57,996 nucleotides of DNA from Prevotella sp. (lineage in GTDB: Bacteria; Bacteroidota; Bacteroidia; Bacteroidales; Bacteroidaceae), in the NCBI GenBank assembly GCA_017940545.1, contig JAGAYI010000015.1, forward strand, positions 1-57,996, in the 5' to 3' direction. The notes beneath the pieces were generated by a model that saw only the letters and a list, made by a program, of their open reading frames with translations, ran no database searches and was not told the origin of the DNA. The number at the start of each line of letters is the position of its first letter. Position 1 is the first letter of the stretch. Both the position numbers and the translations under genes were made by a program. Of the stretch, positions 18,232 through 38,522 are shown piece after piece.

Positions 18232-18294
18232 GACAATATTTTGGTAATTTGATGTTTTTGCCTGACTAAATGCACAATAATGAATAAGTTTTTG

Positions 18295-18302: not shown

Positions 18303-18306
18303 CATC

Positions 18307-21064: not shown

Positions 21065-21180
21065 TTTCCCTTTATCCACTGGTGTTTTGAGCAACTGAGG
21101 GGGATGTAGGGAGTATTCCCTCATTAGCCCCCATCAATCATAGCGTAATCTGCTTTCCTCCGCAGGTTACGCTATTTTTG

Positions 21181-22349: not shown

Positions 22350-23432
22350 CTATGACTCGTTTTTTCGTATATTCTCCAACGTACCTGATAAAAGGTTCTT
22401 GATAGATTCATAATCTTTAACCACAGGCAACAGACGATTGTTGTCATCAGTTATTGCTTTACTTTGTCTATAATAGTACAAACTTCGTTGAGGATCCATA
22501 GCCAACAATGTTATCACTCCCCCAATCAATGTCGTTCCGGGAGTCATGTTGAATAGCAAAGAATGATTTTTGTTGATTAATGCATTTATCTCTTTATTCA
22601 ATGTCTTAAAACAAGTACCGAAATCATCATAGTCACAACTGTCAGTCCAACGAATCTTCATATTGTTAATCAAATTCGCCTTATCAGGAAATTCTCTTTT
22701 TGCACATTCCCTAATCAGCACTTCTGCCATTTCCTTAACACCTAATGTGTTACTATTATCATAATCTTTACGAGTAATCAGCTTGTACACTTTAGAGAAA
22801 TTGACAGGTAAACTGCTATCCAAGCCATTAGACCAAAGAATAAGCAAGGAGCACTCCCTTTCGTCATTAGACACCAGTTGAAGGGTTCTAACCAAAGGTC
22901 GCAGGTTAAGTGCCCGGTATCTTTCTTCTTCTGAAGGATTTGTTTCTGGGGATAGATAAGGAACTGATGGAATGGATATTCCTGAAACAATAACTTTGTT
23001 CTTTCCAGATGCGTCCTCGCTTCTCGGGAAGAAGACCACAAGGAACAGTAATCCAAGAGAACCTGTGATAAAGGACACTATTACCTCAGTCCACTCAGTG
23101 TATTCTTTCGGAAGGAAAAGATTCAGTGTACTGTCTGAAATCCATCCTATATGAACAACAAAGAACAGCAAATAAAAGGCGCTAATAGTACGAGGCGTAA
23201 TGGCATTCGCAAGTAAATTGCTTGCCACGCCGCTTTTGGGCCTGAAGTCTAAACCGTTGCTGTTTCCAATTAGTGCAACAATCAAAATGGCAAAAGTTGC
23301 TACAGCGGCTACTATCCATAACCACAAACCGTTTAACGAACGCATTGCGGCTATTGTCGTAACCTCTGCAACAGATATAAGAATCAAAGCAAAAACACAG
23401 TATTTGTCTCTTGTTGCCATAATTAATGTCAT
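22350..23432 (-). CDS. Four-helix membrane protein with CARF-like C-terminal domain, candidate type III effector
   Basis: This 360-residue protein has four predicted membrane helices in the first 135 residues (about 12-30, 36-55, 83-100, 116-135). A soluble region then starts with an alpha/beta-type strand (KVIVSGISIP, 145-155). It contains CSLLILWSNGL (194-204) and, near the end, LLFNMTPGTTLIGGVITLLAMDPQRSLYYYR (split for reading at GTT). The N-x-T-x-G-T-T run at 295-301 followed by a helix and a YYY strand is the pattern of CARF domains (compare 'DxTGGTKxM...A...Y'). It is the last gene of the cas operon. I infer a membrane effector gated by cyclic oligoadenylate, by analogy with Cam1, Csx23 and CorA-type effectors; I do not recognise a named family. 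An alternative ATG lies four codons downstream. Confidence 0.7.
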   Translation of the reverse strand: MTLIMATRDKYCVFALILISVAEVTTIAAMRSLNGLWLWIVAAVATFAILIVALIGNSNGLDFRPKSGVASNLLANAITPRTISAFYLLFFVVHIGWISDSTLNLFLPKEYTEWTEVIVSFITGSLGLLFLVVFFPRSEDASGKNKVIVSGISIPSVPYLSPETNPSEEERYRALNLRPLVRTLQLVSNDERECSLLILWSNGLDSSLPVNFSKVYKLITRKDYDNSNTLGVKEMAEVLIRECAKREFPDKANLINNMKIRWTDSCDYDDFGTCFKTLNKEINALINKNHSLLFNMTPGTTLIGGVITLLAMDPQRSLYYYRQSKAITDDNNRLLPVVKDYESIKNLLSGTLENIRKNES

Positions 23433-23456
23433 TAAAAAATAAATGTTTCTTTATAA

Positions 23457-23810
23457 TTAATATTCTCTAAATTGTACGAACTTGAATTCTGATATTTTCT
23501 TCCCATCGGGAGTCATGATGGTATTACGCTCTGTTGTAGATGCCAGACTGGTGATGCCCAAGTCTTTCAGGGCATTTACAAGATTACAGGTAAAGGTCAT
23601 TTCACCCATCACATGAACAATGGTTTGTTTTTCCCTTATCCCTTTAATCATTTCCGTATATACTTTGACGAAGCGAAGAACATCTTCCTTTGTGAATGTA
23701 GGCTCAATGATGGGAAAAGTCATATCTACGATTTCCCCATAACGGCGAGCAGCCTCTAATTGCTCCTCGCTCCACTTCTCAGACGGGTGATTTGTTAAAT
23801 TGATGAACAT
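23457..23810 (-). CDS. Csx20-like CRISPR-associated protein
   Basis: This 117-residue protein resembles Csx20: the start MFINLTNHPSEKWSEEQLEA, the central IVHVMGEMTFTCNLVNAL, then SLASTTERNT and the C-terminal FVQFREY. From memory, Csx15/Csx16/Csx20 proteins have been linked to ring nucleases (the Crn4 group) that degrade the cyclic oligoadenylate messenger; this should be checked. Its place between a CARF-HEPN nuclease and a CARF-like membrane protein fits an off-switch for signalling. It starts six bases after the preceding stop. Confidence 0.75.
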   Translation of the reverse strand: MFINLTNHPSEKWSEEQLEAARRYGEIVDMTFPIIEPTFTKEDVLRFVKVYTEMIKGIREKQTIVHVMGEMTFTCNLVNALKDLGITSLASTTERNTIMTPDGKKISEFKFVQFREY

Positions 23811-23816
23811 ATATTA

Positions 23817-25190
23817 TTAATTCTCGAAATTACAAATAACATCTATACAATTACTATATACATCCAAGAATTTATCAGTCAAATCTTGATATGAGTATTT
23901 CCCATTTGCATGAGCCAAAGAGTTTCTGCGCAGACGCAGTTCTGAATATCCGCATCTTTTCATTTCCTTGATGAAGGTTGCGTTAACAGAATTTCGCGGG
24001 AATGTATTTCTGACAAAGCGAGGAAATATTTCATCTTTCTGGAACACTCTGTCTGTCAGTTTCATATTATCGAAATCTCTGTCTTTCATCCCCATGATAG
24101 AAGCAAAGATTTCTCTACTGTCTGATTCAGAGATGTCATATTCGCTCCACTTTTCATGAAAAACATAAACGATACGATATATAATGTATTCTTCAGCCAA
24201 CGGATATTCTTGTAAAATCATACCATGACGATTTGCCCATTCTATGGCAGCCTCAATGTTCTGGATATCATCCCTTGGTACAAAGGATGACATTTCCTCT
24301 TCAAGTTTATCCAAAATCTTTGTGATTGGGTGGCTCGCATCGGCAATCTCTCCACTATCCCTCATCCGCTGAAGATATTTATGAAAGCGTTTAACATATT
24401 CACCATGTCGTATGTTCTCCAGTTGGATTGTCGCTATGTATTCATCCAATTCGTCAATAGCCTCACATAGACAACATAAATCGTCTGACGCCTCATCGTT
24501 TTTATAATAAATACTATCACTAATGCTTTTAACACGACCGAATGTTATCAATTCGCTTGCTACTTGATTATATTCCTGCAGACGAGCAATATTAGTGAGA
24601 TTGATGACTGGTGCGATTCTTCCCTCAACGGGTTGTTCTTTCACTTTAAAGGCTGCTCCCAACTTCTCAAAAGCTCCATACATAATGGAAACAAGTCTGG
24701 TATCCTTCATGAACTTGGAGTAGTTGAAGAGTACAATGGAGAACAGTGGAATGGAACGGAATGCATGGGTCACGTCGAAGTAAATCTGATCATCGAATTG
24801 CAACTTGGCATAGACCGTATCGAAGATGTCCCAGATTTCTTCCTCAGAAAAACCTGCCTCAATATCATGCTCCTCAATCTGAGCCTTTAATCCAATACGA
24901 GTTTGTAAATCCTGGAGCCGATGCTGTAAGCCAATCTTTTCCGACTCATCTGTGATACGTGACTGACCATTATCGAACCAGTTGATTTCCTTTGAACCAT
25001 TCTCACCAGACTTTTCCTTGGATGTACAGAATATAAGAATTCTGTCTTCCTCCGTCCAGTCCTTACAGATATGCTCTATGAGAGCCTCCTGCACAAACCG
25101 CACAGGTGCAGATACGACACCATGGATATCGTATCTGCACTGCACGTAATTGTTTGTGCCTAAGAAGGATATAAATACTTTTCTGGGCAT
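23817..25190 (-). CDS. CARF-HEPN ribonuclease, TIGR02221/Csx1-type
   Basis: This 457-residue protein has an N-terminal CARF-type Rossmann fold (KVFISFLGTNNYVQCRYD at the start) with the DxTHG-like motif DVTHAF at 139-144, typical of the TIGR02221/Csx2 group. The C-terminal helical part ends in a HEPN motif, R422-NSLA-H427 (R-x4-H), the catalytic signature of Csx1/Csm6 RNases. By family knowledge it is activated by cyclic oligoadenylate made by Cas10 and cleaves RNA non-specifically in the cytoplasm. It overlaps nothing and lies two bases after the RAMP gene, in the same operon. Which ring size activates it cannot be told from sequence alone. Confidence 0.88.
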   Translation of the reverse strand: MPRKVFISFLGTNNYVQCRYDIHGVVSAPVRFVQEALIEHICKDWTEEDRILIFCTSKEKSGENGSKEINWFDNGQSRITDESEKIGLQHRLQDLQTRIGLKAQIEEHDIEAGFSEEEIWDIFDTVYAKLQFDDQIYFDVTHAFRSIPLFSIVLFNYSKFMKDTRLVSIMYGAFEKLGAAFKVKEQPVEGRIAPVINLTNIARLQEYNQVASELITFGRVKSISDSIYYKNDEASDDLCCLCEAIDELDEYIATIQLENIRHGEYVKRFHKYLQRMRDSGEIADASHPITKILDKLEEEMSSFVPRDDIQNIEAAIEWANRHGMILQEYPLAEEYIIYRIVYVFHEKWSEYDISESDSREIFASIMGMKDRDFDNMKLTDRVFQKDEIFPRFVRNTFPRNSVNATFIKEMKRCGYSELRLRRNSLAHANGKYSYQDLTDKFLDVYSNCIDVICNFEN

Positions 25191-25192
25191 AA

Positions 25193-27178
25193 CTAAAGTG
25201 CTTTAATAAATCTCAATCCTTTCTTAGTTATTTCTACAAGTACTTTTTCGTTTCCTTTAAATTTATCTTTCTTGCCATTCATGTCCAGTAACTGCGGAGC
25301 AGTATTTTTTCCTTCAATTAATCTTGCTTTTTTTATTGAGCCAGAAAAGAAAGTAACAATAGCCTCAGCCTGTATCGGTCCTGACGTCTTCTGTTCTATT
25401 GGATTAAGGAGTTCAGAATAAAGCGGCAGGTATTCTCCAAATTTGTTTTTCCTCGGATTATGCTGCTTACATTTTACAAATTCCTCTAGTTCCATATATG
25501 TCAATGACCTCTTGAGTCTTTCTGTTTGACGAGGATTTGTCATCAGTAGCAGTTCCCTTATTTGCGGACTTCTTTTATAATTGTGAATATGAGTTTCCAT
25601 ATAATCTATAAAAGAAGTGATAAACTTATCAATATCATCGGCTTCGAAACCTGTGGTCTCTGTAATACTATATTGACAAGCTCCATACCCGAATGCTTTT
25701 CCGAAGCCAAGTGTATGGCAATTCTGCTTCTGTAGTAAAATAGAGTAAAGTATTGCTCCTAATTCAACGGCTTTCAGGTTATGAAACCTGATACAACATT
25801 TGAACTCACTTCCTGCTCCTAAAGGTATAGCTGGATTTGTGTTCTCAAGTTGGGCATCATCAACATCAAACTCCGTCTGATAATTAAATCGCGCTGGATA
25901 CATTTTCCATCCACGCAGTCTCGCATTTCGATCCATCATAGTAGAGAATCTCGCATGATCATTCAGATAGCCATTCTCACCTAGCTGTTCAAGATATATA
26001 GGATAATATGATGGCTTAGGTGAGCCCATATAAGGAGCTATTCCGTTTTCATACTCAAATGGATAGGCATCTTCGCACATGGCATGGGAGATTAATACTC
26101 TACCTTTTAAGGATTCTTCTGTCAATGTCTCGCCAAAGATACATTCAGACATGTCGAATTTTTTATTTTTATGCTGTTCATTCAGAAAATCCTTAATTCT
26201 TTGCTTATAAGGCAATTTATACAGATAAGAGAGACCAATAGAACTGATTGTATTGTCTTCCAACTTGAAGAATACGGGAATTTTAAGTCCTTGGTTCTTT
26301 GATTTAGCTTTCCAAAAATGCCAGTCTTCAGAATCCTTATAGATGAATTCAAAATCCTTATACAACTCACTGTCATATTGTATCCTATAAACAACAGGAG
26401 ATTCCATTTCCTTGAAAACAAATTCAAAGAATTTTCCAGAAGCAGGAGTGCCACCCTTCCTTTCTTTTCTATTTCCTGGCTGTCCTGTAAATACAATCTT
26501 TCCTCTAATCGCTCCTTCTTTATTGAAATGTACACCGACTCTTCTGTCAACAGCTGCGCTATTAGGGTACAATTTATACTCATTGAACCGATAGATAGTG
26601 GAAAAGATTTCTGGACTACATTTTCTGTATTTATATTCAGCAGTCCTGTTAGCATCTTTTATTTTAACACCTTCTCCAAATAAACTGCAGAAATCCGTGT
26701 TTAGTTTTTCGTCAATCGTCTTATGTGAAATTCGGTAAGGGATACCATTGTCAGTTATTTCAATTTCACCGTCATCTCTGATAGTCATCCAACCGCAATG
26801 AACAGAATCATAGGGTAGAGAATCACGATATTGTCTATTGTTCACATCTCGGATACTATAACGCTTATTGTCAACACGTTGCATCTTACAAAAAGATAAT
26901 ATTTCCAATAAGTGACGCAACTCTCCCTTAATGGAAGTGGCTGGTATAAAAAAACTTCCGTCGGGTGTCTTATTAAATGACATAAACTCATCAGAACGTT
27001 TGTCAATTCCCTGTACATGACCATTCCTGACAAATATTGGAGTCATCGCCTTAATATTGATGCAGAAACTACCGCTGATTCCATCAGCAAAAGGAATATC
27101 TTGTGATATCTTGTTGGCCCATTCTGGAAACACTACGGTATCTGCCAATGGAACAAAGTTAAATGGTGCTTTTATCAT
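25193..27178 (-). CDS. Large RAMP (Cas7-like) protein, TIGR03986 type
   Basis: This 661-residue protein begins APFNFVPLADTVVFPEWANK, the typical opening of TIGR03986 proteins. The RAMP core signature IPATSIKGELRHLLE lies at about 78-92. Further RAMP-like blocks include RRVGVHFNKEGAIRGKIVFTG near 210-230 and, near 500, a Gly-rich HTLGFGKAFGYG typical of RAMP C-terminal loops. Large RAMPs of this type occur in type III loci and are thought to be part of, or dock on, the effector complex. It overlaps the small upstream gene by four bases (ATGA coupling). Confidence 0.85.
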   Translation of the reverse strand: MIKAPFNFVPLADTVVFPEWANKISQDIPFADGISGSFCINIKAMTPIFVRNGHVQGIDKRSDEFMSFNKTPDGSFFIPATSIKGELRHLLEILSFCKMQRVDNKRYSIRDVNNRQYRDSLPYDSVHCGWMTIRDDGEIEITDNGIPYRISHKTIDEKLNTDFCSLFGEGVKIKDANRTAEYKYRKCSPEIFSTIYRFNEYKLYPNSAAVDRRVGVHFNKEGAIRGKIVFTGQPGNRKERKGGTPASGKFFEFVFKEMESPVVYRIQYDSELYKDFEFIYKDSEDWHFWKAKSKNQGLKIPVFFKLEDNTISSIGLSYLYKLPYKQRIKDFLNEQHKNKKFDMSECIFGETLTEESLKGRVLISHAMCEDAYPFEYENGIAPYMGSPKPSYYPIYLEQLGENGYLNDHARFSTMMDRNARLRGWKMYPARFNYQTEFDVDDAQLENTNPAIPLGAGSEFKCCIRFHNLKAVELGAILYSILLQKQNCHTLGFGKAFGYGACQYSITETTGFEADDIDKFITSFIDYMETHIHNYKRSPQIRELLLMTNPRQTERLKRSLTYMELEEFVKCKQHNPRKNKFGEYLPLYSELLNPIEQKTSGPIQAEAIVTFFSGSIKKARLIEGKNTAPQLLDMNGKKDKFKGNEKVLVEITKKGLRFIKAL

Positions 27179-27576
27179 AATACCTTCTCCTTTTCTTTAA
27201 ATCCAACAAATACGTTTTTAGTGAAAGTGAGTACGGGCATACCCATGCAGTTCTCATCTTTCTTTTCTTCCCAGTAGCACAAGAACTTGAGCCAACGACT
27301 TCCCATTCGATTTGACAGAAAACTCTTTGACTCGTTGTCTTTATTAGTAAAGTCATTGGTTCCCACCTTATATTTATTAATAAGGTATTGGCCATCAACA
27401 TACTTGATGCTATACGACATGTTTTCCTCCTTGTCGTAGAGTTGTCCTTCAATGACGAAAGGATTCTTTGTTTCGTCAAAGCACATGTCTAAAGCATCTC
27501 CTACGTAAGGTTCTGGTTTTTGTTGGTTACTCCACCAAAGATAACCTTCACACTTATTTATTTTAATTGTTTCCAT
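27175..27576 (-). CDS. Small type III CRISPR protein, TIGR04423-like
   Basis: This 133-residue protein has the motif GYLWWSNQQKPEPYVG near the start and NPFVIEGQLYDKEENMSYSI at 38-57. I associate this pattern with the TIGR04423 family of type III-associated proteins, from memory. No catalytic motif is visible. Position and size would allow a structural role in the effector complex. It is coupled by a four-base overlap to the large RAMP gene. Confidence 0.7.
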   Translation of the reverse strand: METIKINKCEGYLWWSNQQKPEPYVGDALDMCFDETKNPFVIEGQLYDKEENMSYSIKYVDGQYLINKYKVGTNDFTNKDNESKSFLSNRMGSRWLKFLCYWEEKKDENCMGMPVLTFTKNVFVGFKEKEKVL

Positions 27577-27579
27577 AAA

Positions 27580-28944
27580 TTAGTTCTCCGTTATTTTAAT
27601 TGTACCTTCAAAACAACCATTGCCACGATTGACACCACCACCTAACGGAAGCATGCCAGAGCAAAGGTCTTTCAGCGTATTTTCGAAAGCAGTCTTGACA
27701 TCATCCTTACCTTCAAAAGCGCTTTTGTTAACTAACAATTTCAACTCGAAAGACAGCCCTTTAGCATAAAGAGTCTCTTCATTGAACAGAGCTCCATCAA
27801 TAGCTCCTCCAGTAAAGCGGTCGATAGACACATGGTTCAGAATCTTTGGTGAGATTGATGCTTCTTGGATAATGTCGGATATCAGAACATTTCCACGAAG
27901 TTTATTCTGCATCTTTCCATCAGCATCCTTTTCGCCTTCTGAACCAAAAACGGCTTTAACCGCCTCATTGTTCTTGCCAACATGGTCTTCAATCTTTTCA
28001 GCTTCTACTAATGTGTCGGCAAATACTCCTTTCAGTTTATTATAATGGAATGCCAAACGATGCGAGAGAGCACCTTTTACAGAAGAAGCGGGAATTAGAA
28101 CAACATGTTCACGGTCTATAACCTTAGCAGGAGCCTTGCTCCAATCAACAAACGATTCTCTAACAAAGGTCATATCCGCCTTGTCGTTACCAAAGCCAGA
28201 GCCGAAAAGTATAAAATCTACAGGCTTTAACTGCATATTGTAGGTTGTCCAACCCATTAGAGGAGTTCTCTTGAGTTCGAAAGGCGGTTCAACATCCGTC
28301 CACTCCTCACTCAACGAAGACGATTTCTTTAAATACCACTCTTTCTGATCTTTGTCAGTGAGGTCAATCAACTTGTACTGGCACTGGCTACCAACAACCT
28401 CTATTTCGCCAAAACCAGAACGGCTTCCAGAACCGATGCGGAAGGTATCGGAATTCAATGTGTTAAGCAATTCTTTGAACTTTGCATCATCTTTGTTGTC
28501 TGAAAGCATCTCCATCTCAAAGCAGAAACGAGTTCCTTTTAATACAACTTCCTCATCAAACTTGCCGCCTTTAACGGTAGCACCGCGATGACCAATCTTG
28601 GCATGCTGACGGATGGGCAATTGGATGAAATTTGCAAGGAAGTCGCTATTGAGTTTCTCCTGAGGGATAATGCCATCAAGGACGGTACAATCGCAGTCTA
28701 ACATCTTGGCCTCTGTGATTATCAGCGGCGACCCCATTTGCTGGCTACCCATATACTTATCTTCGTCCTTACCTAAAGTGTGACGTAATAATCCTGCAAT
28801 CGTAGTGCCAGGAATAAAGGGAAGACCGTTGATGTCTCTCAACACCAATGAATCGGTCTTAATACCTTTATTTCCACTACCAATATTGAGTGGTGTCTTG
28901 GTCTCGATAATAATACGTGCTATAAATCGATATTGATTCTTCAT
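27580..28944 (-). CDS. Tandem Cas7-type RAMP protein (two Csm3-like domains)
   Basis: This 454-residue protein contains two RAMP domains. Domain 1: LNIGSGNKGIKTDSLVLRD (20-37), then FIPGTTIAGLLRHTL and FRIGSGSRSGFGEIEV. D31 aligns with the catalytic aspartate D33 of Streptococcus thermophilus Csm3. Domain 2: VLIPASSVKGALSHRLAFHY near 286-305, SIDRFTGGAIDGALFNEE near 373-390 and LPLGGGVNRGNGCFEG near the end; it has no obvious equivalent of D31. Thus one of the two sites may cut target RNA. Fused Cas7 domains are known in III-D and III-E systems. The gene sits two bases after the Csx10-like gene. Confidence 0.85.
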   Translation of the reverse strand: MKNQYRFIARIIIETKTPLNIGSGNKGIKTDSLVLRDINGLPFIPGTTIAGLLRHTLGKDEDKYMGSQQMGSPLIITEAKMLDCDCTVLDGIIPQEKLNSDFLANFIQLPIRQHAKIGHRGATVKGGKFDEEVVLKGTRFCFEMEMLSDNKDDAKFKELLNTLNSDTFRIGSGSRSGFGEIEVVGSQCQYKLIDLTDKDQKEWYLKKSSSLSEEWTDVEPPFELKRTPLMGWTTYNMQLKPVDFILFGSGFGNDKADMTFVRESFVDWSKAPAKVIDREHVVLIPASSVKGALSHRLAFHYNKLKGVFADTLVEAEKIEDHVGKNNEAVKAVFGSEGEKDADGKMQNKLRGNVLISDIIQEASISPKILNHVSIDRFTGGAIDGALFNEETLYAKGLSFELKLLVNKSAFEGKDDVKTAFENTLKDLCSGMLPLGGGVNRGNGCFEGTIKITEN

Positions 28945-28946
28945 TT

Positions 28947-30380
28947 TTAATCCTCCTCTCTTGCTTTACATTTCTTGGCCATCTCAGATGCCAAATTAAT
29001 CATGATACTTTGTAAATCCTCATTGACGTGCTGCTGCATGAAAACATCAAGTCGCCCTTTACGGTTTTGTTCTTCCCATTTGTCTTTTGCAACTCCATGA
29101 TCAAGGAATGCATCAATCGCCTTGATGAGCTCTTGACTATCAGAGGTTATCATGGCTAAACTACGAATAGACCCCCATTGAGAGGCAAACTTGCCTTTCT
29201 TAAAGAATTGCTCAATATCTTTAACTACCTTTTGAACAATTTGATAGACAGTCTGATTACTATCTGCAGTTTTCTTCTTGTTAGTCAAGAAGTCAATCAG
29301 AGCAGAATTAGGCTTTGGTGCGTTTGTGGTAGCATTTTCCTCCTGCTTTTTCTCTTCTAAGGTAAATAAAGCCTTACCTTGCTCGTCAGGTTTTCCTGCA
29401 AGAAAAACAGGATTGTAGATAACCTTGCCAAAACCTTCGTTCTTGTATGAACCTACATATTGGCTCTTTTCAGGGCAGGCAGCACCATTCAGGTTGACAA
29501 CAAACACACTTCCCTTTTCAATACCACAACGGTCAGCCTCATAAGTATGACGTTTGCCATTCCATGGGGCATATTGGAAAGTACGTATCTGGCTTTTAGA
29601 CCAATCTACTTCACCGCCATCTACCCCAAGGCCTTTTGCTGTTGGTTGGCAGGTGGGATAACCATTTTCATCAAGGAATATCAAACGACCATCTGCATAA
29701 ACAGTTGCATATTCAGTATTAGACTTTGTCGAACTTACTTCTTTAAAGTCTTTTTGCTCAATAGTTACCAAACCAAATTCAGCAGAGCGTGAGTGACCTA
29801 TATGTTTCTTTCCACAGAGACTTTTTATTATCTTTTCATTCATCTCATCGGATAATTCCGATTCCACCTCGAAATACATGACTAATCCTTTGGATAACGA
29901 CTCATAACCAAACATCTGCCCATCTTTGCTACGGCGGACATCACTGTCATAGGCAGATTTGATTGTAAAATTCTTCTCGATAGCAATAGGTTTTCCTGTT
30001 GTCTCTCCAAAAGAGTAGAATCCCTCTCGGCACTGCTTGAGTTGTTTGGACTTAATATCTGGGCTATTATGATCTGTCAGATGGTGGATGTAGCACTCTT
30101 CACTGGCAGATGCCAACTTTGGATAATACATGGACGCAGGAATTTTCAGGCCTCTGATTCCATCAACAGAGGGGTGGGCATCGCCAAAGCGTACTTTTCC
30201 TGAATGAAACAGTTTCAATGATTCTGTTGAACCATCATCATATAACTTGCCTGCTACAATACCAAGGAAATTGTTGCCTGGGATAAAGTCAAGCGTTTTC
30301 TGATTTCCCTCACTACTTGATGTCTGGCTTAATACAAGGTCAGACTCGAGTGTGCATTTGAATTTTAAAGTCTTTGTCAT
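28947..30380 (-). CDS. Csx10/Cas5-like RAMP with helical C-terminal domain
   Basis: In this 477-residue protein the first ~330 residues are RAMP-like: LDFIPGNNFLGIVAGKLY at 30-47, GKVRFGDAHPSVDGIRGLKIPAS at 61-83, GHSRSAEFGLVTIE and a Gly-rich GSYKNEGFGKVIYNP near 312-326. This matches the Csx10 group, which serves as the Cas5/Csm4 subunit in III-D complexes. Residues from about 385 on are helical and basic with GKFASQWGSIRSLAMI; such a tail resembles a small-subunit (Cas11) domain, an inference only. A one-base gap separates it from the preceding cas7 gene. Confidence 0.75.
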   Translation of the reverse strand: MTKTLKFKCTLESDLVLSQTSSSEGNQKTLDFIPGNNFLGIVAGKLYDDGSTESLKLFHSGKVRFGDAHPSVDGIRGLKIPASMYYPKLASASEECYIHHLTDHNSPDIKSKQLKQCREGFYSFGETTGKPIAIEKNFTIKSAYDSDVRRSKDGQMFGYESLSKGLVMYFEVESELSDEMNEKIIKSLCGKKHIGHSRSAEFGLVTIEQKDFKEVSSTKSNTEYATVYADGRLIFLDENGYPTCQPTAKGLGVDGGEVDWSKSQIRTFQYAPWNGKRHTYEADRCGIEKGSVFVVNLNGAACPEKSQYVGSYKNEGFGKVIYNPVFLAGKPDEQGKALFTLEEKKQEENATTNAPKPNSALIDFLTNKKKTADSNQTVYQIVQKVVKDIEQFFKKGKFASQWGSIRSLAMITSDSQELIKAIDAFLDHGVAKDKWEEQNRKGRLDVFMQQHVNEDLQSIMINLASEMAKKCKAREED

Positions 30381-30381
30381 G

Positions 30382-30924
30382 TTAAGCCTCCTTTCTTATT
30401 GATATCTTACAACGTCCATAGCCACGGTTCCTGCCAGTTCCCATTCGTTTGATAAAACACATAGCATCTGCTAAAATCCCTTCCGCACCATCGGGTACGT
30501 TAAGAATCTCGCCTTCCAACTTACAGGGAACAACGGTTTCTATTTTGCGTAACGTGTTGTCTTTCGCAATGCCGTTTTCGTCAATACTCGTAGATGCGAA
30601 AGTTTGATACAGATGAGGGACTAATCCTTGTTCAACGATATATTGGTATTCTGCTATCGGCAGAGTTGCATTACCAAAGAAAGAACTGCCTGTTTTGTGA
30701 CCATCTTCATCACCAGATACTCCAAAGATATTACCGATAGTATCTTTGTCATCAGACAGAGTGGATGCAGCATCACGGAGAAGGCCTTTCAATGTACGTC
30801 CTGGAACGTAAGGCAGTCCGTTATTGTCCTTGATGACCAATGCATCAACGTCAGCGCCAGCAGCCAAACCTGAACCGCAGTGCCAATTAGAGAAAAACTC
30901 TATTTGATATTTAATCGTGCTCAT
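30382..30924 (-). CDS. Single-domain Cas7 (Csm3-like) RAMP
   Basis: This 180-residue protein has the canonical Csm3 pattern: HCGSGLAAGADVDALVIKD (15-33), then LPYVPGRTLKGLLRDA and the C-terminal GTGRNRGYGRCKISI loop. D27 aligns with the backbone-RNase aspartate D33 of S. thermophilus Csm3, so this subunit should cut target RNA at 6-base intervals. It is short but intact. It lies 11 bases after cas10. Confidence 0.88.
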   Translation of the reverse strand: MSTIKYQIEFFSNWHCGSGLAAGADVDALVIKDNNGLPYVPGRTLKGLLRDAASTLSDDKDTIGNIFGVSGDEDGHKTGSSFFGNATLPIAEYQYIVEQGLVPHLYQTFASTSIDENGIAKDNTLRKIETVVPCKLEGEILNVPDGAEGILADAMCFIKRMGTGRNRGYGRCKISIRKEA

Positions 30925-30935
30925 ACCTTATTATA

Positions 30936-32387
30936 TTATTTAGTTTGCTGATTGATGATGGTATTATATGCCAAGACATCGTAAGCCATACAACGGTTGT
31001 CTTTCTCATTGGTCAAAGCCTCAACAGCTTTGTCATCAATGAAGATTTGAAGCATTCTGTTTTTACGTTGGCCAGCCTTGTTCTTGTCTTCAATACGGAG
31101 TGATATCCAGTTTCTGATACCAGACTTGATACCATCGCCATTTTCGCTATTAAGCAATAGGCTTGCCTGTATCAAGTCTTCGACGGTATTCTTTGAGTTT
31201 TGAGGATGGATATAATATGGGCCTGCCTTGAACGAAAGGCCATCTTTGCTTGTCAGTTCTCTCACTACGATATCCTTGTAGTCGACTATAAAACTATCCT
31301 GTACTTTGTGGAACATCAGACATGAAGGCGGCAGATAATTTGTCTCAGCACCATATATAGCCTTTGTGTCCTTCTTCGCTTGACCGCACAAATCTTCTGC
31401 CAATTGATAGCCATAATAGAATGGATAGGAGGACTTGATAAAAGCAATACCCGCACAGGCTGTCAGATAGTCCTTGTCATCAGCAAAGACATGCTGTTCT
31501 TTGAGGATGTCCCCTAAATGCTTTTTAGTGGTTTCTTCAAAAGCAGTTATAAAGGCATTCGCATAGTCTAATGCCAAATCACCACGGATAATAACAGTCA
31601 TGTCATCACCACTTAGTACTACGGGGCGAATGGGAATAATCTTTTTCTCCGTAAACTTATCAGCAACTGCTTCAAAGGCAATATTAGCAGCTTCTTTGGT
31701 TGCGGTGTCCAACTTTTGAGAAAAATCCCTAAATACGTCCTTTTGCTTACCGACAACCTGAACCACTTTTCCCAGTCCATTACCATCAGCATGAATAACT
31801 GCTATCCAGTCGTTTTTGTCTGTTATGTCGGATACATTATATGCAACATTCTTGGCAGAAATGGCATCCTTGCCAAAACTCTTCTCACACAGGCCTTTTA
31901 CATTCTGGAATAACTCTTTTTGTACAGTGGATTCATCCTTGAATCCTTCAACTTTCACAACAGGAAGTCCTGTGTTATTGGCTCGTTTCACTCCAACTAA
32001 ACCTGTGGTTACACTCCGCGTCGGCTTGTTGCGCTGAACTTTCAGTAAAGCTTCAATATCATCGATGGCTTTACCAAAATCATTTTCCATAAGAACAACA
32101 GCCTGGCTGATAGTAACACCTGGTGCCATTGTCATTACTCTCTTGGGAAACTCGCGGACAACCTTTTTGCAGTCATCCTCATTCTCAAAGATAAATTTGA
32201 TGTTTCCAGCTGCACGTACTACAGATTCTCCTGTCTTTATACCACAATCTTCTATCAATTTGTCGAATACTGTTGTGCAAATCTGCTCCACCAATTCGCT
32301 GGCGCCAATGATGTGTTTTAGTTCATTGGTTTTGAAGATGAAGTCCTGGATGCCTTGTACAGCAGCACCATAAAGATACTTACTCAT
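30936..32387 (-). CDS. cas10: Cas10, HD-less with palm cyclase
   Basis: At 483 residues it is much shorter than typical Cas10/Cmr2, because the N-terminal HD nuclease domain is missing. It starts directly with the Cmr2-like YGAAVQGIQDFIFKTNELK and ASELVEQI. The first palm has HADGNGLGK (D201). The second has LSGDDMT (259-264), a variant of GGDD in which the first glycine is serine and both metal-binding aspartates (261, 262) remain. The motif LTACAGIAFIKSSYPFYYGY with AEDLCGQAK follows. I infer loss of DNase activity but intact cyclic oligoadenylate synthesis, in line with the two CARF-type proteins downstream. It lies 13 bases after cas6. Confidence 0.92.
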   Translation of the reverse strand: MSKYLYGAAVQGIQDFIFKTNELKHIIGASELVEQICTTVFDKLIEDCGIKTGESVVRAAGNIKFIFENEDDCKKVVREFPKRVMTMAPGVTISQAVVLMENDFGKAIDDIEALLKVQRNKPTRSVTTGLVGVKRANNTGLPVVKVEGFKDESTVQKELFQNVKGLCEKSFGKDAISAKNVAYNVSDITDKNDWIAVIHADGNGLGKVVQVVGKQKDVFRDFSQKLDTATKEAANIAFEAVADKFTEKKIIPIRPVVLSGDDMTVIIRGDLALDYANAFITAFEETTKKHLGDILKEQHVFADDKDYLTACAGIAFIKSSYPFYYGYQLAEDLCGQAKKDTKAIYGAETNYLPPSCLMFHKVQDSFIVDYKDIVVRELTSKDGLSFKAGPYYIHPQNSKNTVEDLIQASLLLNSENGDGIKSGIRNWISLRIEDKNKAGQRKNRMLQIFIDDKAVEALTNEKDNRCMAYDVLAYNTIINQQTK

Positions 32388-32400
32388 AATACATATAATT

Positions 32401-33078
32401 TTATTTTGTGATTTTAATCAATATTCCATAACCCACGCTGGCATTTTTACCTATGCCAATGTATTGGGGGAGAAACAGGTTCGTTTTGAACTCTATGTCG
32501 AAAGCCATCAATTTTACATTTTTGTAGGTAGTTGGTCTCTGATCTGTTATGTTGGTAATATGTAATTCCAATTGTTCTTCCAAATGAATGTCAACACCTT
32601 TCAGAAAGGAAAGAATATTACCTATTAATACCCGCTCTAATATTTGGATTCTCTCAACAAGGCTTTCTGTATTTTGATACAAAGAATAGTTCTTTGAATT
32701 AAGTGGAAGCCATCGGTGTAAACGATAAGAGACATATTCGTCCTGCATGGAGAACGGAACCTCTTTAGCTGATATCTTTTCTACGCGACATACCTCTTCT
32801 CGCGTACCAATCATAATAGAAATAGGTAATTCCAAAAGTAATTGCCCAACAAGTTCTATTCCTTCTTCTATACAAACGATAGCAGCCTTGCCATTCAGTC
32901 GCTTATATTGAATGAGGGGGTATGAATAACGGAAAGTATCCTCTCCTGTATGGTTATGATACAGCACATCAGCCTTATCACCAAGACTCTTTAATACCGC
33001 TCCACGAAAGAGGGGTATTTCCTTGTGACTAATCTCGGTATCATAAAAGACAATTAGTGTGCGGATATATTTTTCCAT
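32401..33078 (-). CDS. cas6: Cas6 CRISPR RNA endonuclease (Bacteroidetes type)
   Basis: This 225-residue protein is first in the operon. Its pattern fits the Cas6 variant common in Bacteroidetes: an N-terminal ferredoxin-like strand (YIRTLIVFYD), SYPLIQYKRLNGKAAIVCI near 52-70 and the C-terminal glycine-rich loop LPQYIGIGKNASVGYGILIKI. It processes the array transcript at the repeat 3' side to leave an 8-base tag. His and Lys candidates for catalysis exist, but I cannot assign them. It is preceded by a perfect promoter and is 75 bases from the NADAR gene. Confidence 0.88.
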   Translation of the reverse strand: MEKYIRTLIVFYDTEISHKEIPLFRGAVLKSLGDKADVLYHNHTGEDTFRYSYPLIQYKRLNGKAAIVCIEEGIELVGQLLLELPISIMIGTREEVCRVEKISAKEVPFSMQDEYVSYRLHRWLPLNSKNYSLYQNTESLVERIQILERVLIGNILSFLKGVDIHLEEQLELHITNITDQRPTTYKNVKLMAFDIEFKTNLFLPQYIGIGKNASVGYGILIKITK

Positions 33079-33152: not shown

Positions 33153-33644
33153 TTAAACTGGGACTAATTCTTTTAGCAACGTACAGAATTCTTGTTCTGT
33201 CAATATAGTCTTTCTTGGGTCGCGAAGTCCCCTCGTATGATAGAGGCGCTTGCCTTTGGTTGAAAGCAAAGCAATGCGGAAAGTCTCATTTTGCTCAAAA
33301 AGACACTGATAGGCTTTACGAAGGAGGACCTGGAACTCTGGAGATTGGCGCAGGAAAGACCTTCCTTGCCAAAAGACTATCTGCGTAGTTTGCCAATCTG
33401 AGGTGCTTCGCTCTTTTGCTTCTTTACCAGAAAGGGCACAGATTTCCTTTTGGATTTCTATTTCTTCTATTTTCAAGGATTGGAGGAAGCCTTCCATCGA
33501 GGCACATCTGACACCATCTATCTCAAAGGCATTAGGATAGAGATTGGATAGCACATTAGCTGGGTAAGGACTGGTTGACCAAATGTCAACAGCTTTACCC
33601 ATCAATACTAAGAGTTTTACACTAATCCTTCTAAAAGGTTTCAT
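33153..33644 (-). CDS. NADAR-family protein (YbiA/RibX-like)
   Basis: This 163-residue protein matches the NADAR family: VLSNLYPNAFEIDGVRCASM (31-50) followed by EGFLQSLK, then FWQGRSFLRQ near 94 and the C-terminal NETFRIALLSTKGKRLYHTRG. Family members are N-glycosidases for riboflavin intermediates or hydrolases that remove ADP-ribose from bases; some act as antitoxins of ADP-ribosylating toxins. It is the third gene of an operon with a YhcG nuclease and an unknown protein, four bases after the preceding stop, which supports this start. A second ATG 14 codons in is possible. About 1.9 kb beyond the operon lies a PARP-type transferase gene. Confidence 0.8.
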   Translation of the reverse strand: MKPFRRISVKLLVLMGKAVDIWSTSPYPANVLSNLYPNAFEIDGVRCASMEGFLQSLKIEEIEIQKEICALSGKEAKERSTSDWQTTQIVFWQGRSFLRQSPEFQVLLRKAYQCLFEQNETFRIALLSTKGKRLYHTRGLRDPRKTILTEQEFCTLLKELVPV

Positions 33645-33648
33645 GAGT

Positions 33649-34611
33649 TTATTTCAATAGTCTATTCCTCATACTCATACATCTCTCCATTCTCTTACCA
33701 TTAACGGCATAGAGATAGACGTTATGGTCTGTGAGCTGGGAGAGGGATTTGGAGAAGTCACGGAGGGTAGTGATTGTCTGATCAATGGCCTTCAAGGGTG
33801 GCGTGGAGATGCCGTTGAGGCTGCCTTCTGTAAAAAGGGTCATGGGGATGAGCATCTGACGGGCGGTACCTCGGTCTGCATTGAAGGCAGCAAGCTTGTG
33901 ACTGGCCTCAACGAGGAAGTAGTTGGAAATGATGAGGCGGTTGTGCAGCTTGTTATAGATGGAACAGTCGGGAGTGATGCCCAGCACCTCCATCATGATG
34001 GGATAGTCACGACGTAGCTGCGTCTTAATGCGATTGAGCTTGGTGGCAATCTCATCGAAGGAATAGGACTCATGCTTGCTCATATCGTCGAATACGATGG
34101 TAACGTGGTAGTCACCTCCAAGGAACTGCTGAGGCAAAAGCTGATCAAGGATGTCACGGATATTGGCCAAGCCATCACCAGCATTGGGCTGACGGAACGC
34201 AAAGAGATAGCGGTCGGTCAGCAACAAGGCATTGGAAGGCAGCTTCTCTACACTATCCAACACAGAGTCCCATCCTCTGCCTAACTTTTCTTGTTCGTTA
34301 GATATGTGTACATCGTTGGTGTCTATCAGCGTGGAGATGTCTGGACGTTCTCCACTCAAACACATGACACCGTATGACCTCTGGATGCCTAATGCTTCGG
34401 AAGGGCTGATGTCCAAGATGTATAGCGCGGAAGGATTCTTCTGTACTTCTTCTGGATGGCTTTTGATTCGTTCTGTTTCCGCAACGGTCAAAGACAACAC
34501 CTGCTGTTGCTTGAGCAATTTATATAAGTAGGAACGCGCGTGCAAAGGCTTCATCTCCTCTGACAGGATGATGCTTTTAAGCGTTGTTTCTGTGATATAG
34601 ATTTTAAACAT
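33649..34611 (-). CDS. Unknown 320-residue protein in YhcG-NADAR operon
   Basis: I do not recognise this protein. It is soluble, without signal peptide or membrane helix. An alpha/beta region contains SALYILDISPSEALG, SNALLLTDRYLFAFR (125-140) and HNRLIISNYFLVEASHKLAAF (223-243). The last block, with H223-N-R225 followed by hydrophobic strands, faintly resembles the HxR/HKD neighbourhood of phospholipase-D-like or phosphoinositide-binding folds; I would not annotate it as such. It lies eight bases after the YhcG gene and four before NADAR, so it is the middle gene of a compact three-gene unit. Confidence 0.75.
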   Translation of the reverse strand: MFKIYITETTLKSIILSEEMKPLHARSYLYKLLKQQQVLSLTVAETERIKSHPEEVQKNPSALYILDISPSEALGIQRSYGVMCLSGERPDISTLIDTNDVHISNEQEKLGRGWDSVLDSVEKLPSNALLLTDRYLFAFRQPNAGDGLANIRDILDQLLPQQFLGGDYHVTIVFDDMSKHESYSFDEIATKLNRIKTQLRRDYPIMMEVLGITPDCSIYNKLHNRLIISNYFLVEASHKLAAFNADRGTARQMLIPMTLFTEGSLNGISTPPLKAIDQTITTLRDFSKSLSQLTDHNVYLYAVNGKRMERCMSMRNRLLK

Positions 34612-34619: not shown

Positions 34620-35774
34620 TTATCGTAACTGTTGCAATTCATCATGTAACCATTTTTCAAGTTCCTCCTTGGATGGGAGCTTGAGCATATATTTGGAGAT
34701 GAATAGATTTTCGTCAATCCCATTGGTGGCATATTCCACCATCTCCTTTCCTGCTGCCGTGCAAAGCAGAATACCGACAGGAGGATTGTCACCTTCCTGC
34801 ATCATATTCTTACGGTAATAGGAGAGATACATGTTCAACTGTGCAACATCCTTATAATCAAGCTTGTGAGACTTAATTTCCAAGATGACTCCAAAACGAG
34901 CAATGCGATTATAAAAGACCAAGTCCATGTAATAGTATTCCTCATCCACAAGAATGCGTTTCTGTCGTTTCTCAAAGCAGAAGCCATTACCCAGTTCGAG
35001 CATGAACTCTTGCAAGTGATCCATCAATGCAGACTCTAAATCAGATTCTTCTACTACATCCTTTGTATTCAAGCCTAAGAACTCAAAAACGAATGGAGAC
35101 TTAACAGTTTCGTTAAGACTTTGTTGTAATGCCCCCTGACTGGCTAATGTCTGAAGGGCTTTCTTATCTTGACTTAATCCGCTTCGAGAGAAGTAACCAC
35201 TATCTATCTGACGTTTTAACTCTCGCGTACTCCATGTTCCTTTTATGCACTCTATTTCATAGAAAGTGCGTTCCAAAGGGTCTTCGATGGGTAGGAGCTG
35301 AACAAAGTGTGTGTAGGACAAACTGTTAAAAAGTTTGTCCGCAGGAACCTGTAGTGAAGTACCTGTTTCCTCTCCTCCCAATTGGGCAATCACTGATTGT
35401 CCTATTCTATCTACCTGATTTACTGATGACTTCAATTGGGCAATCACTGATTGCCTTATTCCGTATGTTCTTATCAGATAGTTGTAAACAGCAGGGAATA
35501 GGGATTTATATTCCATATAGAATTGTCTATATAGTTTTAAATCTCTATGCGAATAACCTTGCATTTTTAATCGCTCTGCCAACTTCTGTAACAACTTCTC
35601 TCCATACTTTGCCCTGTCGCTACCATTCTGTTCATAATGCACGATATAGTAGCCGTTCAACCAGTTGCGGCAGGTAACATGTTTGTTGATGGCACTGGCT
35701 GCACTCTGCCGAAATGAGTCATTCATAGAACGCAGGTTCTGCGCCAATAATTCAAATGATTCTTGTTTATTCAT
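34620..35774 (-). CDS. DUF1016 / YhcG-family PD-(D/E)XK nuclease
   Basis: This 384-residue protein has an N-terminal helical DUF1016_N region (INKHVTCRNWLNGYYIVHYE, YSHRDLKLYRQFYMEYKSLFP) and the C-terminal nuclease core: D284 in MDLVFYNR, E299-I-K301, and QLNMY at 312-316. Members of this family occur in restriction-modification and other defence islands and as stand-alone host nucleases. Residues 108-132 contain an in-frame duplication (QSVIAQL twice, 18 residues apart). It is the first gene of the unit and has a consensus promoter. Confidence 0.88.
   Translation of the reverse strand: MNKQESFELLAQNLRSMNDSFRQSAASAINKHVTCRNWLNGYYIVHYEQNGSDRAKYGEKLLQKLAERLKMQGYSHRDLKLYRQFYMEYKSLFPAVYNYLIRTYGIRQSVIAQLKSSVNQVDRIGQSVIAQLGGEETGTSLQVPADKLFNSLSYTHFVQLLPIEDPLERTFYEIECIKGTWSTRELKRQIDSGYFSRSGLSQDKKALQTLASQGALQQSLNETVKSPFVFEFLGLNTKDVVEESDLESALMDHLQEFMLELGNGFCFEKRQKRILVDEEYYYMDLVFYNRIARFGVILEIKSHKLDYKDVAQLNMYLSYYRKNMMQEGDNPPVGILLCTAAGKEMVEYATNGIDENLFISKYMLKLPSKEELEKWLHDELQQLR
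35379..35453. repeat. 21-bp direct repeat inside the YhcG-type gene
   Basis: CAATTGGGCAATCACTGATTG occurs at 35379-35399 and exactly again at 35433-35453, written here as positions because it exceeds twenty bases when flanks are added. The 54-base period keeps the frame. Confidence 0.9.
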
Positions 35775-35865: not shown

Positions 35866-36348
35866 TTATTTTGCATTACTTCTATCGCAAAGATGCAGGA
35901 AATGCCATAGTTTTGTGGCATCACCGTGTGCTGATACAGGTACATGATGCATGTGGCGACTGATGGCAAGGCGTTCTTCATCAAGAAGTTCAAGACCAAG
36001 GACATCCAGCAAATCAACGGAACGCTGGCCATGATGATGATAACCGACTTCATCATACCCTTCCAATTTGGTGGTGCAGAGGTCGTGGAAGAGGGCAACG
36101 ACACGGCAACTATCGTCTGGCAAGTCTGGAGCTATCTTCCTCATTTCGCGATATACTCCCAAAGAGTGATCTGCCAAACCACCTACATACCGATGGTGGT
36201 GATGGCAATGGGTCGTGAAATAGTCGCTGTTTTCCAGATAGGCTATCACATTGTCCATTCCCCTGCGAGGGACATCACTTAATAAGGAGATGACTTCTGC
36301 CTTAGATGTAATACCACAAGAATTCATTGTAGAAATATTTGTATCCAT
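35866..36348 (-). CDS. HD-domain phosphohydrolase-like protein
   Basis: This protein of about 160 residues has HHHRYVGGLADHSLGVYREM, then VVALFHDLCTT (the HD pair) and YHHHGQRSVDLL, the pattern of HD-superfamily metal-dependent phosphohydrolases. It resembles small HD proteins acting on nucleotides. Its 5' end overlaps the 3' end of the membrane transferase gene by 47 bases; a second ATG 21 bases later is possible, and a longer upstream form is unlikely. Tight overlap with a predicted toxin-like enzyme suggests it modulates or protects against that protein. That is inference. Confidence 0.75.
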   Translation of the reverse strand: MDTNISTMNSCGITSKAEVISLLSDVPRRGMDNVIAYLENSDYFTTHCHHHHRYVGGLADHSLGVYREMRKIAPDLPDDSCRVVALFHDLCTTKLEGYDEVGYHHHGQRSVDLLDVLGLELLDEERLAISRHMHHVPVSAHGDATKLWHFLHLCDRSNAK

Positions 36349-37621
36349 ATATAGCAAGCCATATAACAACAAGAAAAGATAAGATAACGATACACGTGAA
36401 CCATACACTCTCCAAGATATCATCAATGACAATCTTCGAGAAGAGCCAATGACGCAAGCCTGTTTCTATATGCTGCGCCCTTCCTGTGCGGAAGTTAAAC
36501 ACATAAATGGGCCTGATACGCCAAGGATGATTATAACGATTCTTCCAATCGAACATGCAATATTCCCAGTAGCCTCCTCGCTCATTCCACCATTCACCAG
36601 TGGTATAACCATTATTTTCAGCATAGCGGTTAAGAACGGCAGGGTTACCATTGGGTCCTGCATGGTAATAAACATAATCAGGGGCAAGGGAATAATTGAT
36701 GATTTTGCCTAAAGAGACTCTACACACTATCATGACGGGGTTATGGTCATTGAGACGGTAAGGATCCTCTGCGTATCTTCTTGCTACTGAACGACGGGAG
36801 GCAAAATAGACACCAATACCACCCCAACTGCTATGACTTGCTGTGAATGTTCCGTCTGTCCACTGACTGCCTTTCTTGCCTGTAATACATTGTCCTGCCA
36901 GCAGGTCTGTGCCATGATACATGGTAATGGCAGGGATGATTGTGTCAATGATGGTCCAAACGGCACCTTCTATCAAGACGAGGCATCCGTCAAAGATGGG
37001 ATATTTCATGACTCGCCAAGGAAACATATACGTCCACTTCCACCAGTCTGCATATCCCTCTGCCCACTGACTGGGCTGTATCACTTCAGAGATAAGGTCA
37101 TAGAGTTCTGTTATACCATAAATTAGAACATTGTAGATAATAGCATTCAACAGACGTAGCGGCGTGATGGCAATATATAATAGTATCTGAATGAAATAGA
37201 ATAAAGGGCGGAGCACCTTCTTAATTCCATCGCTTGGCCAACTGGTCTTGAAGATATAACGCCAGGGTTCTGTCAAAACATGCTGAAGCCGATTCAAAAA
37301 CCAGAAGGGAATGGAGAATAAATAATAGGCATATTCCAGTGTGGTGGCATATTCTGCCCCAAATGAACTTAGAACAATCCGTAAACCAAAGAAGATAGCT
37401 AAGCAAAAACCTACCACGGCACCTGCACTCGCATTGTCAAAAAGCCACCAGCCAATAAGGGCACCTAAACCCATGTATATTCCAATAAAGAAGAGGGCTT
37501 GGATGATTTGTTCTCTGAAGGCATAAAGAATTAACAACACTATGACGCCTATCACCACCTTGATGATATCTAATGTACTATATAGGAGTATTGTCGTTAA
37601 TAGGATTTCAGATAGTTCCAT
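36302..37621 (-). CDS. Membrane protein with PARP-type ADP-ribosyltransferase domain
   Basis: This 439-residue protein has several N-terminal membrane helices (about 12-33, 40-60, 66-84, with hydrophobic segments near 100 and 140-155) and one C-terminal helix (405-425). Between them, at about 232-390, is a domain with the PARP H-Y-E signature: MYHGTDLL with H236, GGIGVYFASRRSVARRYA with Y272, and YWEYCMFDW with E353. The context PVMIVCRVSLGKI, then RIRPIYVFNF, matches the beta strands of PARP folds. It probably transfers ADP-ribose from NAD to a target near the membrane, or only binds NAD. No named family is recognised. It is upstream of, and overlaps, the HD gene. A -7 box lies at 37639-37646. 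Confidence 0.75.
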   Translation of the reverse strand: MELSEILLTTILLYSTLDIIKVVIGVIVLLILYAFREQIIQALFFIGIYMGLGALIGWWLFDNASAGAVVGFCLAIFFGLRIVLSSFGAEYATTLEYAYYLFSIPFWFLNRLQHVLTEPWRYIFKTSWPSDGIKKVLRPLFYFIQILLYIAITPLRLLNAIIYNVLIYGITELYDLISEVIQPSQWAEGYADWWKWTYMFPWRVMKYPIFDGCLVLIEGAVWTIIDTIIPAITMYHGTDLLAGQCITGKKGSQWTDGTFTASHSSWGGIGVYFASRRSVARRYAEDPYRLNDHNPVMIVCRVSLGKIINYSLAPDYVYYHAGPNGNPAVLNRYAENNGYTTGEWWNERGGYWEYCMFDWKNRYNHPWRIRPIYVFNFRTGRAQHIETGLRHWLFSKIVIDDILESVWFTCIVILSFLVVIWLAIYGYKYFYNEFLWYYI

Positions 37622-37638: not shown

Positions 37639-37646
37639 CAAAGATA
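37639..37646 (-). promoter_or_regulatory. -7 box of the transferase-HD operon
   Basis: TATCTTTG on the minus strand lies 17 bases before the ATG. No TTTG is found at the expected distance. Confidence 0.5.
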
Positions 37647-37727: not shown

Positions 37728-37782
37728 CAGCCCGAAAAACAAATGATATGCCAGATATAGGTAACTGAAAATCCACGGAAGC

Positions 37783-37867
37783 AGTGTAACAAAGGGGGTA
37801 CGTAAGTACCTGTAAGACACCTGTCGAAAGACAGGGTCAAGGCGTTCTTTTATCACATTGTTACACT
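37783..37867 (+). promoter_or_regulatory. Structured 5' leader, candidate riboswitch-like or cis-regulatory RNA
   Basis: A perfect 10-bp helix (AGTGTAACAA at 37783-37792 with 37858-37867) encloses two hairpins. One is GGTAC-GTAA-GTACC at 37797-37810. The other is CCTGTC-GAAA-GACAGG at 37820-37835, extended by GAC/GTC (37816-37818 with 37836-37838) past a single bulged A. Both loops are GNRA tetraloops, typical of RNA tertiary contacts. The closing helix ends 13 bases before the ATG, so folding could control translation. I match it to no known riboswitch class. Confidence 0.65.
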
Positions 37868-37880
37868 AAAATTTCCATTT

Positions 37881-38522
37881 ATGAGAAAGAGATTTTACCA
37901 TTTTAGGGTGTGCTCATGCTCACCCACAGAGGGTGTTGTGTATATGGAAAGCAACATGCTGCGGGATATCGTTAATCGGGAAATACACCCCATCCGCTGT
38001 GCCTCAACCTGCGGACGCAAAGCATCGAAGGGATTGGTGCTGGGTGACCTCTGTGCGGAAGCGCACCATCCGCAATGGGCACTAAAGGTGTGGATGTTTG
38101 TCATGGAGCAGATACACTGGAAGGACTACGAGGACTGGTGCAACGTTTGGTTTAACACAAAGTATGTAAGTTTCCACGATGTCATCTCAGACGGCATCTG
38201 CGAGATTATCGGGAAGCGGATTGACAGACTGAACATCCGCTATGGATGGGCCCAACCCGAGGGCAGGAACTGCTGGGAGTATTATGCAGGAGACGGCTTC
38301 TATGACTCGTTCAGCTACGAGAAGTTCGACAATGACTGGGACCGATTGCGCGAGAAATACATCACCATGCGCAACGAGGCGATAGCTGCACAACAGACGG
38401 AACGGATATTCCGTGATGGACAGGGCAAGCTGCCGCCACAAGCGCAGGACTTTTTCTACTACTGGGAGGACTTCGACCCGACAGAGCAGGACATGTACTT
38501 CAAAATTGACGACTGGGACTAA
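37881..38522 (+). CDS. Unrecognised 213-residue protein behind a structured leader
   Basis: I recognise no family. It is a soluble protein, rich in Trp, Tyr, Asp and Cys, with CSCSPTEGVVYMESN near the start, CASTCGRKASKGLVLGDLCAE at about 40-60 and an acidic aromatic tail (DFFYYWEDFDPTEQDMYFKIDDWD). There is no signal peptide. Codon choice and Trp-rich blocks look like a real gene. A later in-frame ATG (MESNMLRD) would remove the Cys-Ser-Cys segment. It has its own promoter and ends in a strong terminator, so it forms a single-gene transcript. Confidence 0.7.
   Translation: MRKRFYHFRVCSCSPTEGVVYMESNMLRDIVNREIHPIRCASTCGRKASKGLVLGDLCAEAHHPQWALKVWMFVMEQIHWKDYEDWCNVWFNTKYVSFHDVISDGICEIIGKRIDRLNIRYGWAQPEGRNCWEYYAGDGFYDSFSYEKFDNDWDRLREKYITMRNEAIAAQQTERIFRDGQGKLPPQAQDFFYYWEDFDPTEQDMYFKIDDWD

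Follow-up and report, generated by a model that had tools for sequence, protein, structure and literature searches.

We analyzed a gene at positions 36302..37621 (minus strand) of a 57,996-nucleotide stretch of DNA from Prevotella sp. (GenBank assembly GCA_017940545.1, contig JAGAYI010000015.1). This whole stretch is called the window, and all positions are numbered within it unless a relative's locus is named. Sequence comparisons and structure predictions give good support to the view that the 439-residue product is a PARP-type ADP-ribosyltransferase (ART) domain carried on a membrane-embedded helical body. We propose, with a probability just below one half, that it is a membrane-tethered PARP-type transferase, probably facing the cytoplasm, which acts in an envelope-sensing or conflict module. 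The parts of the gene are given here; invariance refers to 20 aligned family members, including the window protein.

36302..37621, minus strand: ART gene, 439 amino acids from the ATG; predicted N-terminal membrane helices, helical platform, PARP-type catalytic domain and C-terminal membrane helix
37358..37603, minus strand: three predicted N-terminal membrane helices, about residues 7-88 (model and hydrophobicity); a variable anchor, with no invariant residue in 1-88
36929..37357, minus strand: predicted helical platform, residues 89-231, hydrophobic or amphipathic (model); 22 invariant residues
36467..36928, minus strand: putative PARP-type ADP-ribosyltransferase domain, residues 232-385 (profile and model); 28 invariant residues
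36914..36916, minus strand: codon of H236, first triad residue (sequence and family alignment)
36806..36808, minus strand: codon of Y272, second triad residue (sequence and family alignment)
36563..36565, minus strand: codon of E353, third triad residue (sequence and family alignment)
36332..36412, minus strand: predicted C-terminal membrane helix, about residues 404-430 (model and hydrophobicity)

The motifs YHGT, GVYFA and EYCMFD, which start at residues 235, 270 and 353, supply the H-Y-E residues H236, Y272 and E353. These three residues are identical in all 20 members, the other 19 of which are 36-73% identical to the window protein. The Pfam PARP profile (PF00644) matches 17 of the 20 at E ≤ 0.01 (best value 3e-8). 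In the window protein itself the match has an E value of 2.3e-4 and a score of 21.2 bits, below the gathering score of 26.7, and its best stretch covers only residues 268-309. A full-length AlphaFold model of fair quality places the triad residues on strands 232-239, 270-274 and 351-357. When this model was compared with structures, PARP domains accounted for 50 of 50 Foldseek rows and 49 of 50 VIA rows among the matches listed, with moderate scores; other ART families are missing from these listed matches, which we do not count as excluding them. By profile and model, residues 232-385 are very probably a PARP-type transferase domain.

Embedding in the membrane is supported by both hydrophobicity and the model. 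Ahead of the domain, hydrophobic peaks (19-residue mean ≥ 1.5) occur at residues 17-35, 39-57, 66-84, 140-158 and 214-232, and one follows it at 406-424; the model contains helices at 2-34, 36-61, 64-87, 89-117, 131-151, 153-181, 193-228 and 406-438. Invariant residues are absent from the anchors (1-88 and 396-439) and make up 22 of 143 positions in the platform, 28 of 154 in the catalytic domain and 4 of 10 in the tail (386-395). Because they are confined to platform, domain and tail, the conserved unit appears to be the platform plus the PARP domain, with exchangeable anchors. The invariant polar residues of the platform include R156, N159, N164, E179, E188, R203, E218 and D226. The C-terminal membrane helix is missing in L009-L012 (relatives' loci carry L numbers and genomes G numbers), all of which are SH3b carriers.

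An SH3b (SH3_3) domain is present in 11 of the 20 members; the window copy has no SH3_3 match in Pfam. At the hydrophobicity threshold used, a signal-like hydrophobic segment lies ahead of the SH3b in 9 of the 11. Between the SH3b point and the platform there are mostly three hydrophobic segments, with two in L022-L024, L026 and L014 and four in L011; in L022-L024 the second segment continues into the first helix of the platform. Summed over 16 members with three helices, the helix 2-3 loop contains one Lys/Arg versus 16 Asp/Glu, and the helix 1-2 loop contains 13 versus 17. The near absence of Lys/Arg from the helix 2-3 loop favors a cytoplasmic PARP domain, although it falls short of proof; a cytoplasmic orientation of the catalytic domain is probable.

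A preliminary description of this DNA had taken the H-Y-E residues as the mark of a PARP fold set between membrane helices and had called a membrane PARP unusual in bacteria. The reading frame, the order and invariance of the triad and the hydrophobic helices on both sides of the domain agree with it. The fold is supported by PF00644 and the full-length model, with weak direct profile alignment to true PARPs (see below). The rarity is also evident: PF00644 scores above its cut-off in 0/198 genomes of the order and in 4/238 of the phylum, and the three of these four phylum proteins that were read look soluble by eye. PHROGs and NCBIfam contain nothing for the ART protein.

The GxGxYFA stretch is common to the ART family, PARP4 and the Bacteroidota PARPs. 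PARP16, a membrane-anchored human PARP that is not known to have N-terminal membrane helices or SH3b, differs in these two features from the ART family, where the SH3b occurs in 11/20 members. The family has its H-Y-E order, with the PARP profile and the PARP-like model, in common with PARP/ARTD domains, including bacterial ones such as the C. difficile CD160 PARP (PMC5966428). The bacterial architectures given there consist of WGR, PARP_reg and PARP_cat, and the words transmembrane and SH3 are absent from the main text; membrane helices, helical platform and optional SH3b distinguish the ART family from these PARPs.

The family is rare and patchy. One scan of genome_contigs gave 14 relatives with 50-73% identity in the best segment; 13 are labeled Bacteroidetes, Bacteroidales or Prevotella, and one, which begins at a contig edge, is labeled Lachnospiraceae. 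Ruminant foregut samples or deer are mentioned in five of the 14 record titles. When whole genomes were searched by profile, the protein was present in 10/399 genomes of the family, 3/393 of the order and 1/395 of the phylum, with the window's own genome counted each time; one of the ten family genomes (G209) has a fragment with stops. In the order-level match G892 the gene is split over two frames by an apparent frameshift (L035, 9616-10963). With the ART domain alone, 61 family genomes yielded two strong matches (the window's own genome and G042), and four more at E 0.08-0.34 were treated as noise. The viral_contigs, phage and plasmid collections yielded no match, and we rejected phage or plasmid cargo on these zero counts. 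The ART gene has a G+C content of 42%, compared with 50% for the window. Alignments A2 and A4 exclude L015, which lies at a contig edge; L025/L036, a stop-containing fragment at a contig edge; and L027/L028/L035, where an apparent frameshift spreads the gene over two frames, whose pieces stayed unjoined. L017-L019 were omitted as the same proteins as L005, L012 and L013; L012 and L013 are nearly identical, so that per-locus counts are slightly above the number of independent events.

The following genes adjoin the ART gene.

35866..36327, minus strand: HD-domain protein (Pfam HD at E 3.2e-4, slightly under the cut-off) that overlaps the ART gene by 26 bases, its ATG being internal to that gene
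34620..35774, minus strand: YhcG/DUF1016 PDDEXK nuclease, PADLOC candidate PDC-S02
33649..34611, minus strand: C4, 320-residue protein without known function
33153..33644, minus strand: gp30.3/NADAR-like protein (PF08010, 8.8e-44; NADAR PF08719, 0.002, under the cut-off)
37881..38522, plus strand: C2, 213-residue protein without known function, divergent from the ART gene

We searched the loci of 22 relatives (3.1-21 kb, several ending within 10 kb; ART found in 21 by tblastn) with 15 window proteins (tblastn, E ≤ 1e-4), and scanned 28 neighbor proteins of the relatives and 16 window frames with Pfam, PADLOC, PHROGs or NCBIfam. The HD protein was matched in 7 of the 22 loci, C2 in 6, C4 in 5 (two cut by an edge), the NADAR-like protein in 2 and the YhcG nuclease in none. 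The HD start codon lies 23-29 bases within the end of the ART gene in the window, L002, L003, L007, L008 and L014; in L004 the HD gene is about 1.75 kb downstream of ART and in L011 it is convergent. The alignment shows that the HD protein retains the His/Asp residues of the metal-binding motif. It accompanies 6 of 8 relatives without SH3b and 1 of 11 with SH3b (p 0.006). As background, 101 family genomes contained the window's own HD and one distant relative (46% identity), and the window's own C4 and four others. Fisher tests, which take no account of relatedness, gave p 1.3e-5 for HD and p 0.008 for C4; for HD the background cut-off was E ≤ 1e-15 and that for loci 1e-4, and all seven locus matches are below 1e-61. 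Comparison of the HD, C4 and NADAR-like proteins with solved structures gave no convincing match.

In the mechanism that we propose, the platform (89-231) would fix the catalytic domain (232-385) to the inner membrane. The variable N-terminal anchor, preceded in 11/20 members by the secreted-type SH3b, would link the enzyme to the periplasm. Upon an envelope or infection cue, cytoplasmic NAD+ would be used to ADP-ribosylate a target near the membrane, and this modification would arrest growth or alter the envelope. In members without SH3b, such as that of the window, the co-translated HD protein would determine the threshold, or else act on the product by processing or reversing it; the same role is proposed for the NADAR-like proteins in some loci. 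A narrower version, which we regard as tentative, is a one-component receptor in which the periplasmic SH3b senses wall damage or phage lysis and the platform switches on the cytoplasmic PARP, so that ADP-ribosylation would be the response to injury of the envelope; the window's branch would have exchanged the sensor for a co-translated HD protein, sometimes a NADAR, that sets or resets the mark.

Several observations weigh against the proposed reading. The ART domain folded alone gave a poor model, and its structure matches were ambiguous within the ART superfamily. A direct search of solved structures with the window protein found no match at E ≤ 10. The domain profile found weak matches, in which chain 7xoz (an ADP-ribosyl cyclase/hydrolase, E 0.019), which we take to be a plant TIR, stood above PARP4 (E 0.023). 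Direct profile alignment of the family to true PARPs, represented by three PF00644 proteins that exceed the cut-off and come from genomes in the same phylum as the window, is weak. Default hhalign aligned about 20 columns around GxGxYFA, with Y272 on the PARP tyrosine, at probabilities of 2.5% and 1.0%. When full alignment was forced in a local run, it spanned the domain and paired each of H, Y and E with its counterpart at a probability of 5.5%, with no confidence around E. The global alternative gave 11 columns without meaning, and MAFFT paired H and Y and left E unpaired. This comparison is limited by the low depth of the family alignment (Neff 2.3). In addition, the number of helices is uneven across members, and segments 140-158 and 214-232 are borderline, so that the topology is unsettled if one of them alone crosses the membrane. 

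The main rival, possible though rather doubtful, is that the protein is the toxin of a toxin-antitoxin or abortive-infection module, in which phage attack would prompt the transferase to kill or arrest the cell, with the HD protein, or the NADAR, as antitoxin. DarT, with which it could be compared, is soluble. In the window and five relatives the HD start codon overlaps the stop codon of ART, which is consistent with this explanation, as are the YhcG and CRISPR neighbors and the patchy spread. The NADAR-like gene in the window and in L003 points the same way, since DarT1 shares its operon with a NADAR that is its antitoxin (PMC11543638), and the window likewise has an ART superfamily enzyme and a NADAR-like gene in one gene run. 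However, unlike the DarTG1 arrangement, the window's NADAR-like gene is four genes away from ART, that of L003 is on the opposite strand, and the gene occurs in only 2 of the 22 loci, in one case as a 25-residue fragment. HD relatives are missing from the searched stretch in 14 of the 21 ART-bearing loci (7 have one), above all in those with SH3b; this speaks against an obligate toxin-antitoxin pair and so against this explanation, as do the empty searches of the phage, plasmid and viral_contigs collections and the lack of any PADLOC model for the ART protein at E ≤ 0.1. The HD overlap in members without SH3b, together with the NADAR-like neighbors, would fit a conflict role.

It is unlikely that the domain acts as an NADase, which would hydrolyze NAD+ and deplete the cell instead of modifying a target. 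The PARP profile in 17/20 members and the poor ART-only model count against this, and the tethering and the conserved platform suggest a localized target. Still less probable is a catalytic domain on the outside, in which case the ART would be exported or displayed on the surface and would act on the envelope or on other cells. The secreted type of the SH3b and the uneven helix count, with its two borderline segments, would fit such a location. On the other side, NAD+ is located in the cytoplasm, the helix 2-3 loop is nearly devoid of Lys/Arg, and the HD partner is co-translated and has, by eye, no signal-like stretch at its alignment start.

The preliminary description had also placed the gene beside a type III CRISPR locus, whose features are listed with an AAA gene on its far side.

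21166-33078: type III CRISPR locus with Cas7 III-D-like, Csm3/Cas7-like, Cas10, Cas6 and RAMP proteins (Pfam, PADLOC)
21166-22074: CRISPR array, 13 copies
22350-23432: CARF-TM-like protein
23817-25190: Csx1
15737-18187: SpoVK/CbbX-like AAA protein, 816 residues, beside a Sel1 protein (the pair spans 15737-19395)

The locus does adjoin the ART gene, but the tie is one of position, and the survey of relatives' neighborhoods did not bear out a CRISPR linkage; the recurring partners are HD, C2 and C4. That the protein is a membrane effector of this CRISPR system is very improbable: although the gene lies about 3.2 kb from cas6 on the strand of the cas genes, none of the nine cas-block proteins is matched in any of the 22 loci (the queries were the window's own nine proteins, which unrelated CRISPR types would escape), the ART protein has no CARF or SAVED match in Pfam or PADLOC, and neither ADP-ribos- nor PARP occurs in the main text of a survey of type III effectors (PMC11229360). 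The association is most likely a coincidence of neighborhood.

The AAA protein recurs near ART in L003, L006, L008 and L009, with Sel1 relatives in the first three and alone in L009; it is matched over at least 780 of its 816 residues in 5/101 genomes, the window's own included. The CRISPR block seems to have been inserted into an AAA/ART island or next to it. Other neighbors of ART include TIR proteins (L007, L013, L015), RyR proteins (L004, L014), a kinase-AAA (L007), a SpoIIE with a sensor domain (L003) and PrsW (L015). Together with the NADAR-like genes of the window and L003, the TIR and RyR neighbors resemble the NAD+/ADPr conflict network (PMC9503650), to which RyR-domain phage proteins that cleave cyclic ADPR signals also relate (PMC13232231); AAA-based conflict systems have likewise been described (PMC7159879). 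In L029-L032, L034 and L035 no HD, C4, C2, NADAR-like or cas relative was found in the stretch searched, and several neighbors are housekeeping-like, by eye only.

Some smaller features were observed in these loci. A short frame directly after ART in L009 (4244-4426) looks by eye like the start of the HD protein and gave no tblastn match; it is perhaps a decayed HD partner. In L002 (13530-13604) a 25-residue stretch, 64% identical to the C-terminus of the window's NADAR-like protein, lies between an AAA gene and another frame and is perhaps a remnant of such a gene. L004 (14519-15478) has a Peptidase C39-like domain fused to a RyR domain about 3 kb from ART. In L034 (3779-8678) several small frames that look related by eye lie ahead of ART, and there is also an OmpA-family protein.

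The region between the ART gene and C2 has two further features. The Bacteroidetes -7 box has the consensus TAnnTTTG.

37639..37646, minus strand: TATCTTTG box just upstream of the ART ATG, similar by eye to the -7 box (unscored)
37782-37868, plus strand: outer inverted repeat AGTGTAACA...TGTTACACT around two hairpins, directly ahead of the C2 gene

The predicted RNA fold of 37740-37885, which spans the inverted-repeat element, has an energy of -39.2 kcal/mol (z -3.38). Rfam found no match anywhere in the window, this element included.

A membrane SH3b-ART is not described in the available part of PMC9503650, and no title in the literature searched, a scope mostly outside subscription papers, names a membrane SH3b-PARP. 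The case cautions against deducing function from a CRISPR neighbor, as the partners that recur with ART are an HD protein and two uncharacterized proteins. A PARP on a conserved membrane platform, with an SH3b in about half of the members, would be a compact, receptor-like design. If the proposed reading is true, it links the state of the envelope to ADP-ribosylation in gut-type Bacteroidales.
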